From an uncultured Brevundimonas sp. (GTDB taxonomy: Bacteria; Pseudomonadota; Alphaproteobacteria; Caulobacterales; Caulobacteraceae), in the NCBI RefSeq assembly GCF_947305955.1, contig NZ_CAMZFB010000001.1:1-64000 (forward strand): a stretch of DNA of 64,000 nucleotides, written 5' to 3'. Positions 30,972 to 60,265 of this stretch are shown here, piece after piece. Position numbers and translations under genes: made by a program. The notes beneath the pieces were generated by a model that did not search any database, was not told the DNA's origin, and saw only the letters and a program-made list of their open reading frames with translations. Positions within the stretch are counted from its first letter, which is position 1. The number at the start of each line of letters is the position of its first letter.

Positions 30972-31147
30972 GCCCTACGCCAGCGCCGCGGGCGCTGACT
31001 ACTTGAGGGCGCTCTTGCCCTAACGCCAGCACCACGGGTGCTGGCTACTTGAGGGCGTTTCTGCTCTATCGCCTGCGCCGCGGGCGCTGGCTACTTGAGG
31101 GCGTTTTTGCCCTACTCCAGCGTCGCGGTCGCTGGCTGCTTTAAGGT
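30972..31147 (+). repeat. Tandem nested-hairpin repeats, array A (4 units)
   Basis: Units start at 30972, 31017, 31063 and 31109 (period 45-46). Each has an outer stem GCCCT / AGGGC (GCTCT in unit 3) enclosing an inner stem such as CAGCGCC-GCG-GGCGCTG or CCAGCACC-ACG-GGTGCTGG, followed by CTACTTG before the right outer arm. Short T-rich spacers (GTTTTT, GTTTCT) separate the units. Unit 4 is degenerate. The array fills the convergent gap between regA and mmcB and probably also works as a terminator. Confidence 0.85.
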
Positions 31148-33630: not shown

Positions 33631-33715
33631 GCGCTATGGCAGCGACGCGGTCGCTGCCGACTTGAGCGCGTTAAGTGCGCTATGGCAGCGACACGGTCGC
33701 TGCCGACTTGAGCGC
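33631..33715 (+). repeat. Tandem nested-hairpin repeats, array B (2 units)
   Basis: Units lie at 33631-33669 and 33677-33715 (period 46). The outer stem is GCGCT / AGCGC and the inner stem CAGCGAC-(GCG or ACG)-GTCGCTG, with GACTTG before the right outer arm. It has the same architecture as array A with different, compensated stem sequences. It lies 12 nt after the BI-1 stop and before that gene's terminator. Confidence 0.85.
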
Positions 33716-39279: not shown

Positions 39280-39306
39280 GTTCTCGCCTGCCTCGTTCTT
39301 TATTGA

Positions 39307-39339
39307 GGGGCTATCGGCCGGTCGGCCTACTTGAGCCCC
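39307..39339 (+). repeat. Nested-hairpin repeat, locus C unit 1
   Basis: The outer stem GGGGC / GCCCC (extendable to 6 bp as GGGGCT / AGCCCC) encloses the inner stem GGCCG-GT-CGGCC, with CTACTTGA before the right arm. It is the same family as arrays A and B, in plus orientation. Confidence 0.75.
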
Positions 39340-39382
39340 GTGGGGTCAAGCGGTGCCTGCGTTCCTGAGCGCCCGAAGGGCC

Positions 39383-39412
39383 GTGCTCAAGTAGCGCAAA
39401 GCGCGGTAGCAC
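39383..39412 (-). repeat. Nested-hairpin repeat, locus C unit 2 (opposite orientation)
   Basis: The outer stem GTGCT / AGCAC encloses GCGC-AAA-GCGC, with the conserved CTCAAGTAG on the left arm of the plus strand. It is inverted relative to unit 1, 44 nt away. Confidence 0.75.
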
Positions 39413-39741
39413 ACTCGACAAAGCTGTCGTGCAGGTGGAGACGCGAGTTTCACTTGCGCCGGAAGTGGCGGCTTATGCCCCATTTTCAAGCCTGTGTCGA
39501 CTCAGGAGTCGCCGCACCGACAAGGGCTAGATTGCGCGGCTCTGCGGGCTTCCTTGTGAAGAATAAAATTCCTGTAATGTTAAACTTGAGTCATTTCTTT
39601 CAAGTAATCATTTCAAACAATTATAAATTTGTCCGATTTATACCGCATAGGCGTCATTCTGTATTCAATATCGGCGTTCATACAGGCAGCCAGTGAAGAT
39701 GAATATCTCGAAGACAAACCTCTCAAACTGGAAACGCCCCA
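39413..39741. other. Intergenic region upstream of the UrcA gene
   Basis: After the repeats this spacer changes from G+C-rich (to about 39550) to AT-rich (39560-39660, with AATAAAATTCCTGTAATG). The AT-rich part presumably carries the urcA-type promoter. I see no ORF or named RNA here. Confidence 0.4.
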
Positions 39742-49147: not shown

Positions 49148-49310
49148 GTCCTCAACCCACTCCGCGGGCAATGGGACGACCTCACCAAGCCGTCCTCAAG
49201 TAGCCCAAAGGGCGGTAGGACAACTTAACAAACCCGTCCTCAACTAGCCCAAAGGGCGATAGGACAACTTAACCAAGCCGTCCTCAAGTAGCCCGAACGG
49301 GCGATAGGAC
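49148..49310 (-). repeat. Tandem nested-hairpin repeats, array D (4 units, period 44)
   Basis: Units start at 49148, 49192, 49236 and 49280, exactly 44 nt apart. The outer stem is GTCCT / AGGAC (GGGAC in unit 1) and the inner stem GCCC-AAA-GGGC, or GCCCG-AA-CGGGC in unit 4. CTCAAGTAG (CTCAACTAG in one) is on the plus-strand left arm. Unit 1 is degenerate. The array lies between dnaK and dnaJ. Confidence 0.88.
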
Positions 49311-49316
49311 AACCTA

Positions 49317-55832: not shown

Positions 55833-56213
55833 ATGCCCCGTCAAGCCATCGCCCTTGTGTCGACGAGCCTGTTCGCGCTGATACTCAGTGCCTGCGACGC
55901 CCGCCCGTCTGACCCCGTCCCTACCCCTACAGTCCCACCGACAACGCCCGCCGCCGCCGCCGCCGAAACGACAGCCGCCATCCAGTCCGGCAGTTTGTCA
56001 CCGCAGGGCCAGCCACTCGAAAAACCGGTCACCTGTCGCGAAGAGATCGGAGACGCCGCTGCACAGGCGCTGGTGCGTCGCTGCATTGCCGTAAGCCCCG
56101 CGACACGACCGCCGTGCAACGTCGCCAATCCCTGCCAGATGATCGAGGACGAGATTAAACGCGGCTGCGACTTCTTCGGCCCCAACGAAAAACCCGCCGA
56201 GTGCACGAGCTGA
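55833..56213 (+). CDS. Small lipoprotein, Cys-containing C-terminus
   Basis: 126 residues, not recognised. The signal peptide and lipobox are ALVSTSLFALILSAC. A Pro/Thr/Ala-rich spacer follows, then a hydrophilic domain with several cysteines (VTCREEIGD, RRCIAVS, PPCNVANPCQMIEDE, RGCDFFG, AECTS), probably disulfide-bonded in the periplasm. The ATG at 55833 has AAGGAAGG upstream; the ORF track start at 55689 would overlap rph. Repeat array E begins 4 nt after the stop. Confidence 0.8.
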   Translation: MPRQAIALVSTSLFALILSACDARPSDPVPTPTVPPTTPAAAAAETTAAIQSGSLSPQGQPLEKPVTCREEIGDAAAQALVRRCIAVSPATRPPCNVANPCQMIEDEIKRGCDFFGPNEKPAECTS

Positions 56214-56216
56214 AAT

Positions 56217-56398
56217 GCGCTCAAGTCGTGAGGGACCGCGCCACGAACGTAGCGCACTAATAACGCGCTCAAGTCGTGAGTGACCGTGTCACGAACGTAG
56301 CGCACTAATAACGCGCTCAAGTCGTGAGTGACCGTGTCACGAACGTAGCGCACTAATAACGCGCTCAAGAGTGAGTGACCGCGTCGCGAACGTAGCAC
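56217..56398 (-). repeat. Tandem nested-hairpin repeats, array E (4 units, period 48)
   Basis: Units start at 56217, 56265, 56313 and 56361, exactly 48 nt apart, with the identical spacer ACTAATAAC. The outer stem is GCGCT / AGCGC and the inner stem GTGAC-CGT-GTCAC, with CTCAAGTCG on the left arm. Units 2 and 3 are identical, unit 1 carries a few changes, and unit 4 is degenerate at both stems. It lies between the small lipoprotein gene and the convergent pnp. Confidence 0.9.
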
Positions 56399-56427
56399 CC
56401 GACAGAAGGCAAAGCCTTTTGTCGCTC

Positions 56428-56474
56428 GATCAAAAAACCCCGCCGGACGAAGTCCGACGGGGTTCTTTTTGATC
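56428..56474 (-). terminator. Bidirectional terminator before pnp 3' end
   Basis: GATCAAAAA with AACCCCG...CCGGAC-GAA-GTCCG...CGGGGTT and TTTTTGATC form a long near-perfect hairpin with T-runs for both strands. A smaller hairpin, GACA-GAAGGC-AAA-GCCTTT-TGTC, precedes it at 56401-56423. Confidence 0.9.
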
Positions 56475-56487
56475 AAAAGATCAACTC

Positions 56488-58716
56488 TTAGTCGCGGCGC
56501 GGACGACGACCGCCACGGTCGCCACCTTCACGCTTCGAACGACCACCGGTGTCTTCCGAAAGCGGCGGCTCGCCACGTTCGGCACGCTCGGCGTTGATCT
56601 TGTCGGTGATGTCCTCGCCGGTGGCTTGGTCAACAACCTTCATCGACAGCTTGGTCTTGCCGCGATCGTCGAAGCCCAGGAATTTGACCTTGACCTCTTG
56701 GCCTTCCGAAACGACGTCCGCCGGATTGGCGACGCGTTCCAGAGCCATCTGCGACACGTGGACCAGACCGTCACGGGCACCGAAGAAGTTCACGAAGGCA
56801 CCGAAGTCGACAACCTTCACAACCTTACCGGTGTAGATGGTGCCCACTTCCGGCTCGGCAGCGATGGAGTTGATCCAGTCGCGGGCCGCGTCGATCTTTT
56901 CCTGCTCGTTGGCAGCGATCTTGATCGTGCCGTCGTCAGCGATGTCGATCTTGGCGCCGGTCTTTTCCACGATTTCGCGGATGACCTTGCCGCCCGAACC
57001 GATGACTTCGCGGATCTTGTCGACAGCGATCTTGATCGACTCGATCTTCGGAGCGAACTCGCCCAGCTCGGTGCGCGGAGCGTCCATGGCCTTCGACATT
57101 TCGCCGAGGATGTGGCTGCGGCCGGCGTGAGCCTGAGCCAGAGCCTGCTTCATGATCTCCTCGGTGATGCCCGGGACCTTGATGTCCATCTGCAGCGAGG
57201 TGATGCCTTCCGAGGTACCGGCGACCTTGAAGTCCATGTCGCCCAGGTGGTCTTCGTCACCCAGGATGTCCGACAGGATGGCGAACTCGCCCGACGGCTC
57301 CAGGATCAGACCCATGGCGATACCCGACACCGGACGGATCAGCGGAACGCCAGCGTCCATCAGGGCCAGCGACGAACCGCAGACGGTAGCCATCGAGGAC
57401 GAGCCGTTCGACTCGGTGATCTCCGACACCAGGCGTATGGTGTACGGGAAGTCTTCCTTCGACGGCAGCATCGGACGGATGGCGCGCCATGCCAGCTTGC
57501 CGTGACCGATTTCGCGGCGACCCGGCGAGCCCATGCGGCCAGCTTCACCGACCGAGTACGGCGGGAAGTTGTAGTGCAGCAGGAAGTTTTCTTTGTAGGT
57601 GCCGGTCAGGCTGTCGATGTACTGCTCGTCTTCGCCGGTGCCCAGGGTCGCAACGACCAGAGCCTGGGTTTCACCGCGGGTGAACAGGGCCGAACCGTGA
57701 GTGCGCGGCAGGACGCCGACTTCCGAAACGATCGGACGGACCTTGTCGAGGGCACGGCCGTCAACGCGGTGGCCGTTCTCGATGATGTCGCGGCGCAGGA
57801 CTTCGGCTTCGCATTCCTTGAAGGCGGCCGAGAATTTCGACGAGTCAACGCCGTCCGGATTCTCGTCGGTCTTCACCAGAGCTTCGGCAGCCTTTTGCTT
57901 GGCAGCATCGACGCCCGAACGGCGGTCGTACTTGCCCGGCAGCTTGTAGGCAGCCTTGATCTCTTCGCCGACCAGCTTCTTGATCGAAGCGACGACGTCC
58001 GAGTGGTCTTCAGCCTGGAAGTCGAACGGCTCCTTGGCGGCGTGCTCGGCCAGATCGATGATGGCGTCGATGACCGGCTGCATGCCCTTGTGGGCAAACA
58101 TCAGGGCTTCGAGCATCTTCTCTTCCGAAAGCTCCTTGGCTTCGGATTCGACCATCATCAGGGCGTCAGCCGTACCGGCGACGACCAGATCCAGAGCCGA
58201 CTCTTCCATCTGGGCGATGGTCGGGTTCAGCACCAGCTCGCCGTCGATCATGCCGACGCGGGCGCCACCGATCGGGCCCATGAACGGAACGCCCGACAGG
58301 GTCAGGGCAGCCGAAGCGGCAACCATCGACAGGATGTCCGGATCGTTTTCCAGATCGTGCTGCAGGACGGTAACGATGACTTGCGTCTCGTTCTTGAAGC
58401 CCTTGACGAACAGCGGGCGGATCGGACGGTCGATCAGACGCGAAACCAGCGTCTCCTTCTCGGTCGGACGGCCTTCACGCTTGAAGTAGCCACCCGGGAT
58501 CTTGCCGGCTGCGAAAGTCTTTTCCTGGTAGTTCACGGTCAGCGGGAAGAAGTCCATTCCCGGCTTCGGTGCACGACCGTAGACGACGGTGGCCAGAACA
58601 ACGGTTTCACCGTAGGTGGCCAGCACAGCGCCGTCAGCCTGACGGGCGATGCGACCGGTTTCCAGCGTCAGCGGGCGACCCGCCCACTCGATCGTCTTGC
58701 GTTTGATATCGAACAT
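56488..58716 (-). CDS. pnp: Polyribonucleotide nucleotidyltransferase (PNPase)
   Basis: 742-residue 3'-5' phosphorolytic exonuclease and degradosome component. It has two RNase PH-like domains (first [20 protein letters not shown]; second [20 protein letters not shown] and [16 protein letters not shown]), then a KH domain ([20 protein letters not shown]) and an S1 domain ([20 protein letters not shown]). The tail is basic and Arg/Gly-rich ([14 protein letters not shown]). Length is slightly above E. coli (711). It is downstream of rpsO on the same strand. Confidence 0.96.
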
Positions 58717-59243: not shown

Positions 59244-59258
59244 CGTATGTCCTTTCTT

Positions 59259-59298
59259 GCCCTATCGCTCGCCTCGCGGAGGCTCGCTGTATGAGGGC
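59259..59298 (+). repeat. Single nested-hairpin repeat, locus F (degenerate)
   Basis: The outer stem GCCCT / AGGGC encloses the inner stem GCCTC-GCG-GAGGC, with GTATG where other copies have ACTTG before the right arm. Same layout and loop (GCG) as arrays A and B. It lies between rpsO and truB. Confidence 0.6.
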
Positions 59299-59332
59299 GC
59301 TAGACAACCTGAAAACGAGACAGGGTCTGTTC

Positions 59333-60265
59333 TCAGGTGAGGTTAAATACGCGGTCCGGCGCTAGCCGTCCGGCCTTGAGATTGCAGAGGCAAACCAGCG
59401 TCCCGTCGGAGTAGATTGCGACAGTCCCCTCGTCCGAACCTAGCCGGCTTTGGAGCTGTTCAACCTGCTTCGGCAGAAGAACGATGGGTCGTCCCTGTCT
59501 CAGAGAGAGGGCTTCCTGTTCCGTCACGGCCAGATCCGGGATGTCGTCCAGAGCGGTCGCCACAGGCAGAAGGCCTTCAGAGGCGGTGCCCTTATGCGCC
59601 AAATCCTCGAGAAAATCCAGTGTGACGGCGTTCTGTACGTTAAACGGCCCCACCATCTCGCGTCTAAGGACAGAAACATGCCCTTCGGCACCGAGAACGG
59701 CGGCAAGATCTCGCGCCAGCGACCGGACATAGACGCCCTTGCCCGTACGCATGGTGATTTCGACGTGGTCGGCATCGGGCGCGTCGGTCACGGCGGCCTC
59801 GTGGATCGTCACGCGACGGGATTTCAGTTCCACTTCAACGCCTTCGCGCGCCAGATCATAAGCGCGCTCGCCATTGACACGGATGGCCGAAAAGGCAGGC
59901 GGAACCTGATCGATCGTACCAACGAACTGCGGCAGGGCGGCTTTGACCTGTTCCACCGTCGGGCGCACATCCGAGCGTCCGATGATCGTACCCTCGCGGT
60001 CGATACTATCGGTGGAGATGCCCCAGTGGATGACGAAGCGGTAGATTTTCTGCGCGTCCATCATGAACGGCACGGTCTTGGTCGCCTCGCCCAGCGCGAT
60101 AGGCAGGATGCCGGAGGCCAGCGGATCGAGCGTACCCGCATGGCCTGCCTTCTGGGCGTTGAACAGACGGCGAACCTTGGTCACAGCCTCGGTCGAGCCC
60201 ATCTCATAAGGCTTGTCGAGGCAGATCCAGCCGTTGACGATCTCGCCCTTCTTGCGACGGGCCAT
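59333..60265 (-). CDS. truB: tRNA pseudouridine(55) synthase TruB
   Basis: 310-residue enzyme that makes pseudouridine 55 in the tRNA T-loop. It has GWICLDKPYEMGSTEAVTKV, the catalytic Asp in HAGTLDPLASGILPIALGEA, and KIYRFVIHWGISTDS. The C-terminal PUA-like region is short. Its ATG overlaps the rbfA stop (TGATG), so the two are probably translationally coupled. Confidence 0.96.
   Translation of the reverse strand: MARRKKGEIVNGWICLDKPYEMGSTEAVTKVRRLFNAQKAGHAGTLDPLASGILPIALGEATKTVPFMMDAQKIYRFVIHWGISTDSIDREGTIIGRSDVRPTVEQVKAALPQFVGTIDQVPPAFSAIRVNGERAYDLAREGVEVELKSRRVTIHEAAVTDAPDADHVEITMRTGKGVYVRSLARDLAAVLGAEGHVSVLRREMVGPFNVQNAVTLDFLEDLAHKGTASEGLLPVATALDDIPDLAVTEQEALSLRQGRPIVLLPKQVEQLQSRLGSDEGTVAIYSDGTLVCLCNLKAGRLAPDRVFNLT

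Follow-up and report, generated by a model that had tools for sequence, protein, structure and literature searches.

REP elements are believed to rely on RAYT transposases. The features given for GTAG-type REPs in the accounts of PMC3733652 (Di Nocera et al. 2013) and PMC8266576 (on E. coli REPs and TnpA-REP) are a hairpin, a GTAG-like tag, a stem mismatch, clustering, location at gene 3' ends and occasional copies inside genes. As described in PMC3733652, the members of REP families mostly stand in pairs, either head-to-head or tail-to-tail, and REPs of the CGTC superfamily predominate in Alphaproteobacteria. The names Brevundimonas, Caulobacter and several Rhodobacteraceae are absent from the main text of that paper.

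Here we analysed a tandem array of hairpins, array E, in a 64,000-nt stretch of DNA from an uncultured Brevundimonas (the window). We consider it likely that array E arose by local amplification of a copy from an orphan, REP-like family of DNA palindromes, which spread long ago and has been vertically inherited.

Array E between a lipoprotein gene and pnp

Array E consists of four hairpin units of about 39 nt, which start at 56217, 56265, 56313 and 56361, exactly 48 nt apart. The initial annotation had reported this period together with identical spacers, and both were confirmed: all three spacers are the same 9 nt (ACTAATAAC), and only in unit 4 is the inner part offset by 47, by a 1-nt deletion. 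Units 2 and 3 are indeed identical, spacers included. TRF placed the array at 56217-56396 (period 48, 3.8 copies, 94% matches, score 311) and ranked it as the strongest tandem array of the window. The features of this region are as follows.

55833..56213, plus strand: small putative lipoprotein gene (lipobox LILSAC; no Pfam match)
56217..56255, minus strand: unit 1 of array E, long subtype, two inner-stem mismatches (model R2, 54.1 bits)
56265..56303, minus strand: unit 2 of array E, fully paired, same as unit 3 (R2, 55.5 bits)
56313..56351, minus strand: unit 3 of array E, same as unit 2 (R2, 55.5 bits)
56361..56398, minus strand: unit 4 of array E, 1-nt deletion, adjoins the conserved right flank CCGACAGAAGGC (R2, 41.9 bits)
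56256..56264, no strand: spacer ACTAATAAC, again at 56304-56312 and 56352-56360
56425..56477 (about), no strand: strong hairpin, probable bidirectional terminator of the lipoprotein gene and pnp, judged from its fold
56488..58716, minus strand: pnp, polynucleotide phosphorylase (Pfam)

The surroundings were also as the initial annotation had described them. The stop codon of the lipoprotein gene (TGA, 56211-56213) is followed by the array at the fourth base. The hairpin on the other side has T/A-rich flanks, and its fold would suit a terminator acting in both directions on the lipoprotein gene and pnp, which are convergent; it is missing from the list of a simple terminator scan. The repetitive minus-strand open reading frame over the array (55841-56476, 211 aa, with repeated ...SALLVRYVRDTVTHDL...) is present and is spurious. 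On both strands the array region folds as RNA far better than its shuffles (z -6.6 and -5.9). At gathering score, Rfam matched only one tRNA in the window, with weak sub-threshold matches at the terminator. A CRISPR was ruled out by the 9-nt spacers, which are identical where CRISPR spacers vary, and the plasmid search gave no match.

A family of two-storey hairpins and its relation to known repeats

Read on the minus strand, the array E unit is GCGCT-AC-GT-TC-GTGAC-ACG-GTCAC-TC-AC-GACTTG-AGCGC. The family to which it belongs shares this two-storey plan, in which an outer stem of 5 bp carries an asymmetric internal loop that is conserved and an inner hairpin that varies. The outer stem (NNNCT/AGNNN) closes with CT/AG. 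In the internal loop AYC faces T-R-CTTG, and the opposite strand reads CAAGTAG, CAAGCAG or CAAGTCG. Two subtypes were modelled. The inner hairpin of the short subtype (model R1, alignment A2) has 4 bp and a TTC-type triloop; that of the long subtype (model R2, alignment A4), which includes array E, has 2 bp, a TC/TC mismatch (GA/GA on the other strand), 5 bp and a GCG-type triloop.

Both stems covary strongly, and in each subtype the covariation greatly exceeds that of column shuffles and of slid partners. In the long subtype 97.8% of the cells are paired with 61 double changes, a level reached by 0/500 shuffles, and the slid controls gave 38-50%; the short subtype has 95.9% paired cells and 25 double changes. 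When the outer stem was not required, the three outer pairs beside CT/AG were paired in 91-100% of the copies (232 short and 82 long), which are upper estimates because some of the loci had been found with patterns or models that favour pairing. Outside the outer stem the pairing drops to background within about two bases, and the unit ends are thus defined. The tag beside the inner hairpin is AAGTA in 187 of 232 short copies and AAGCA in 61 of 82 long copies, and it is enclosed by the covarying outer stem. DNA folding of single units did not separate the strands, and the units of two relatives favour other folds in a single-sequence DNA model.

Beyond what the initial annotation had described, the hairpin family of array E also builds the remaining arrays of the window and is spread throughout the genome. 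The arrays at 30972, 33631 and 49190 and the inverted pair at 39306/39381 share its unit plan.

30972..31147, plus strand: array of three units and a degenerate fourth
33631..33715, plus strand: array of two units
39306..39340, plus strand: short-subtype unit, half of an inverted pair, conserved in the relatives G024 and G104
39381..39414, minus strand: short-subtype unit, other half of the inverted pair
49190..49312, minus strand: array D, three short-subtype units between dnaK and dnaJ
59259..59298, plus strand: one copy of the long subtype, located between rpsO and truB and lacking in G024 and G104

Several features are shared with the GTAG superfamily as PMC3733652 and PMC8266576 present it. 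Both are short dispersed palindromic hairpins, mostly intergenic and near gene 3' ends, with a palindrome of 20-50 nt present in many copies; REPs are enriched between convergent or unidirectional genes, and the family between convergent ones. The family also has a conserved stem mismatch (long subtype), clustered copies, occasional copies in coding genes and, 5' of the hairpin on one strand, a GTAG, GCAG or GTCG tag. However, this tag is closed inside the covarying 5-bp outer stem, whereas the REP tetranucleotide is described as unpaired and terminal; the arrays are head-to-tail, and no RAYT/Y1 transposase was found in 24 of 25 genus genomes. With the CGTC superfamily, as described in PMC3733652, the family shares the character of alphaproteobacterial dispersed palindromes unlinked to transposase genes, but it has no CGTC tag in either alignment (A2, A4) and follows another stem and loop plan. 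Palindromes regularly spaced at single sites also recall BIMEs and REPINs, but those are inverted REP pairs, and here 10 direct arrays stand against 1 inverted pair in the genome. A REPtron joins REPs with a RAYT (TnpA-REP), and Y1_Tnp is found 0 times in the window's own genome and in 1 of 25 genus genomes. Because of the closed outer stem, the direct arrays and the missing Y1_Tnp, the family is called REP-like and orphan, rather than a REPtron or REPIN.

Distribution of the family and search for a transposase

The two models together find about 47 copies at 29 sites in the window's own genome, with 10 head-to-tail arrays of 2-4 units, of which array E is the longest. The units are 30-40 nt long and most deduplicated copies are intergenic. 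Each model matched in 25/25 genomes of the genus, which is Brevundimonas by named records. At the order level, matches were found in two g4 genomes of family f4 (131 and 15 with the short model) and in one further genome, and none in the others. A sample of the class gave matches in 7/240 genomes, including one with 19 (G299). Exact matches in named records were mostly from Brevundimonas, and also from Rhodobacteraceae such as Roseovarius, Sulfitobacter and Sediminimonas.

This distribution bears on a chance minisatellite, in which slippage would have multiplied an arbitrary intergenic sequence belonging to no wider family. Units 2 and 3 match each other perfectly, as do the spacers, and this would fit such an origin, but the origin is refuted by the genus-wide family, by the roughly 47 related hairpins of the genome and by the single units at site E in relatives, and we give it practically no credence.

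Several other occurrences were recorded. One genome (G009) carries head-to-tail arrays of near-identical units, about 12 at a 40-nt period (L273, G009:C1:666500-669500) and 7 at a 38-nt period (L272, G009:C1:617500-620500). In several Brevundimonas (L050, L091, L120, L128, L154), an orthologous gene for a putative HI0933/BaiN-like flavoprotein contains an in-frame short-subtype unit, which encodes a PASSSPKGDRP-like insert. Seven contigs of the viral collection IMG/VR (L164-L170) have short-subtype units with mostly paired stems, and are possibly provirus flanks. In G012 (L268/L269), type II secretion-like genes lie on a duplicated segment, at least 4.5 kb long, whose copies are 99.96% identical, and family units with a conserved GCATGCGCGAAGCGCCAGGC... 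tail are present between and inside these genes. This three-copy segment was considered as a transposon and rejected, being a duplicated type II secretion-like gene cluster.

A RAYT/IS200 transposase was searched for as the partner of the family and was absent in nearly all genomes. Y1_Tnp (PF01797) was detected in the control, Caulobacter vibrioides, but it was not found in the window's own genome, in 24/25 genus genomes or in the copy-rich G027, G009, G015, G105 and G299. G027, from the same order, holds its 131 short-model matches in a 2.4-Mb genome. The sole match among the 25 genus genomes is a 405-aa open frame in G018 (L171), a possible RAYT.

The family could instead be a REP/REPIN family in active movement, with a RAYT (TnpA-REP) transposase acting in trans. 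The GTAG-like tag, the hairpin with its conserved mismatch, the CT just 5' of the tag, the intergenic location and the copy at 59259, absent in both relatives, would all agree with this. Besides the missing Y1_Tnp, also in the copy-rich genomes, the sites argue against it, since most family sites of the window are common to the relatives and the 59259 copy, compared with G024 and G104, has no clear target duplication or clean target-site signature. We regard present mobility of this kind as very unlikely. At that place (59245-59338, between rpsO and truB) the single unit and a further small hairpin replace about 16 nt of G024 and G104.

The same search also counts against the orphan REP-like reading, because the enzyme proposed for the spreading was not seen. 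The tag closed inside the outer stem, the predominance of head-to-tail arrays and the missing leading/lagging-strand bias also weigh against it. That reading, which we prefer, would have the ancestral spread driven by a single-strand-DNA mechanism of the RAYT/TnpA-REP type that has since been lost, after which the family would have been inherited vertically. A two-storey single-stranded DNA hairpin family copied and amplified by a non-Y1 enzyme, with the conserved internal loop as its recognition site, seems quite unlikely.

History of array E and the nature of the element

The window is syntenic with G024 and G104. At site E, between the lipoprotein gene and the pnp terminator, each of these relatives has one unit. 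A single unit also occurs in G059, G061, G071, G085, G086 and G091 and an interrupted one in G067; many genomes have no unit there, and four units are found only in the window's lineage. With two close relatives and at least 7 other species at one unit, the expansion from one to four is lineage-specific. The recent tandem duplication suggested by the initial annotation is therefore upheld by relatives in which the copy number is one and never four. Near pnp, a second palindrome (CCCTCTCCC...GGGAGAGGG) is nested within the site E unit at three loci (L185, L191, L212).

Unit 4 shares the right flank CCGACAGAAGGC with both relatives and is closest in sequence to their single units, and it is likely the ancestral copy. 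New copies were thus probably added on its left, as the hairpin with its 9-nt flank. Either replication slippage or unequal recombination could have caused such tandem amplification of hairpin and left flank. In units 2 and 3 both sides of the inner stem have changed, from GCGAC/GTCGC in the relatives to GTGAC/GTCAC, and unit 1 has lost two pairs. Other sites vary as well: site C has two units in the window and one in the relatives; G024 has two units at site D, where G104 lacks them; and at site A there is one unit in G104, whereas G024 has two that face the other way. Both relatives keep the inverted pair at 39306/39381.

If an RNA were under selection, G·U should be tolerated on the strand of that RNA. 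In the family stems 97% of the cells are Watson-Crick; G·T occurs 13 times and A·C 16 times. Of the copies in tandem intergenic regions, 30 have the sense and 45 the antisense orientation. The copies lie between convergent genes in 83 cases, tandem in 75 and divergent in 23, so that convergent places are enriched (83/181, 46%, versus a background of 129/547, 24%); these statistics depend on a crude gene caller and on a set of loci that the short-subtype pattern had helped to select. No leading/lagging-strand bias was seen in G105 and G107 (20/36 and 20/32, by a rough ori/ter estimate). Since G·T does not exceed A·C, no orientation bias is present and convergent ends are enriched, we prefer a DNA palindrome, or correction of one arm from the other through template switching, to a 3'-UTR RNA. 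Some of the covariation could also arise from template switching in the absence of selection, but this would leave unexplained why the internal loop remains conserved and unpaired.

The initial annotation had expected array E to be transcribed as a 3' UTR. A structured 3'-UTR RNA element that affects stability or decay or is bound by an RNA-binding protein, with a stronger effect when the copies are in tandem, would account for the strong covariation with a conserved asymmetric loop, for the array start just past the stop codon and before the terminator, and for the convergent gene ends. The G·U count and the lack of a sense bias leave this claim weak, and the reversed units at site A of G024, the position of array D beyond the dnaK terminator and the lack of any Rfam match to the element at gathering score are further points against it, so that we hold an RNA element to be unlikely. 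As for a role of the DNA palindromes at gene 3' ends, relief of supercoiling or protection from readthrough or 3' decay would be a guess.

In conclusion, the main point lies beyond array E, in the wider orphan REP-like family. Its orthologous sites and its arrays of 1, 2, 4, 7 and 12 units offer material for measuring array growth. A genus-wide REP-like family with well-paired covarying stems and fresh tandem arrays, in which RAYT goes undetected, raises the question of how such repeats persist.
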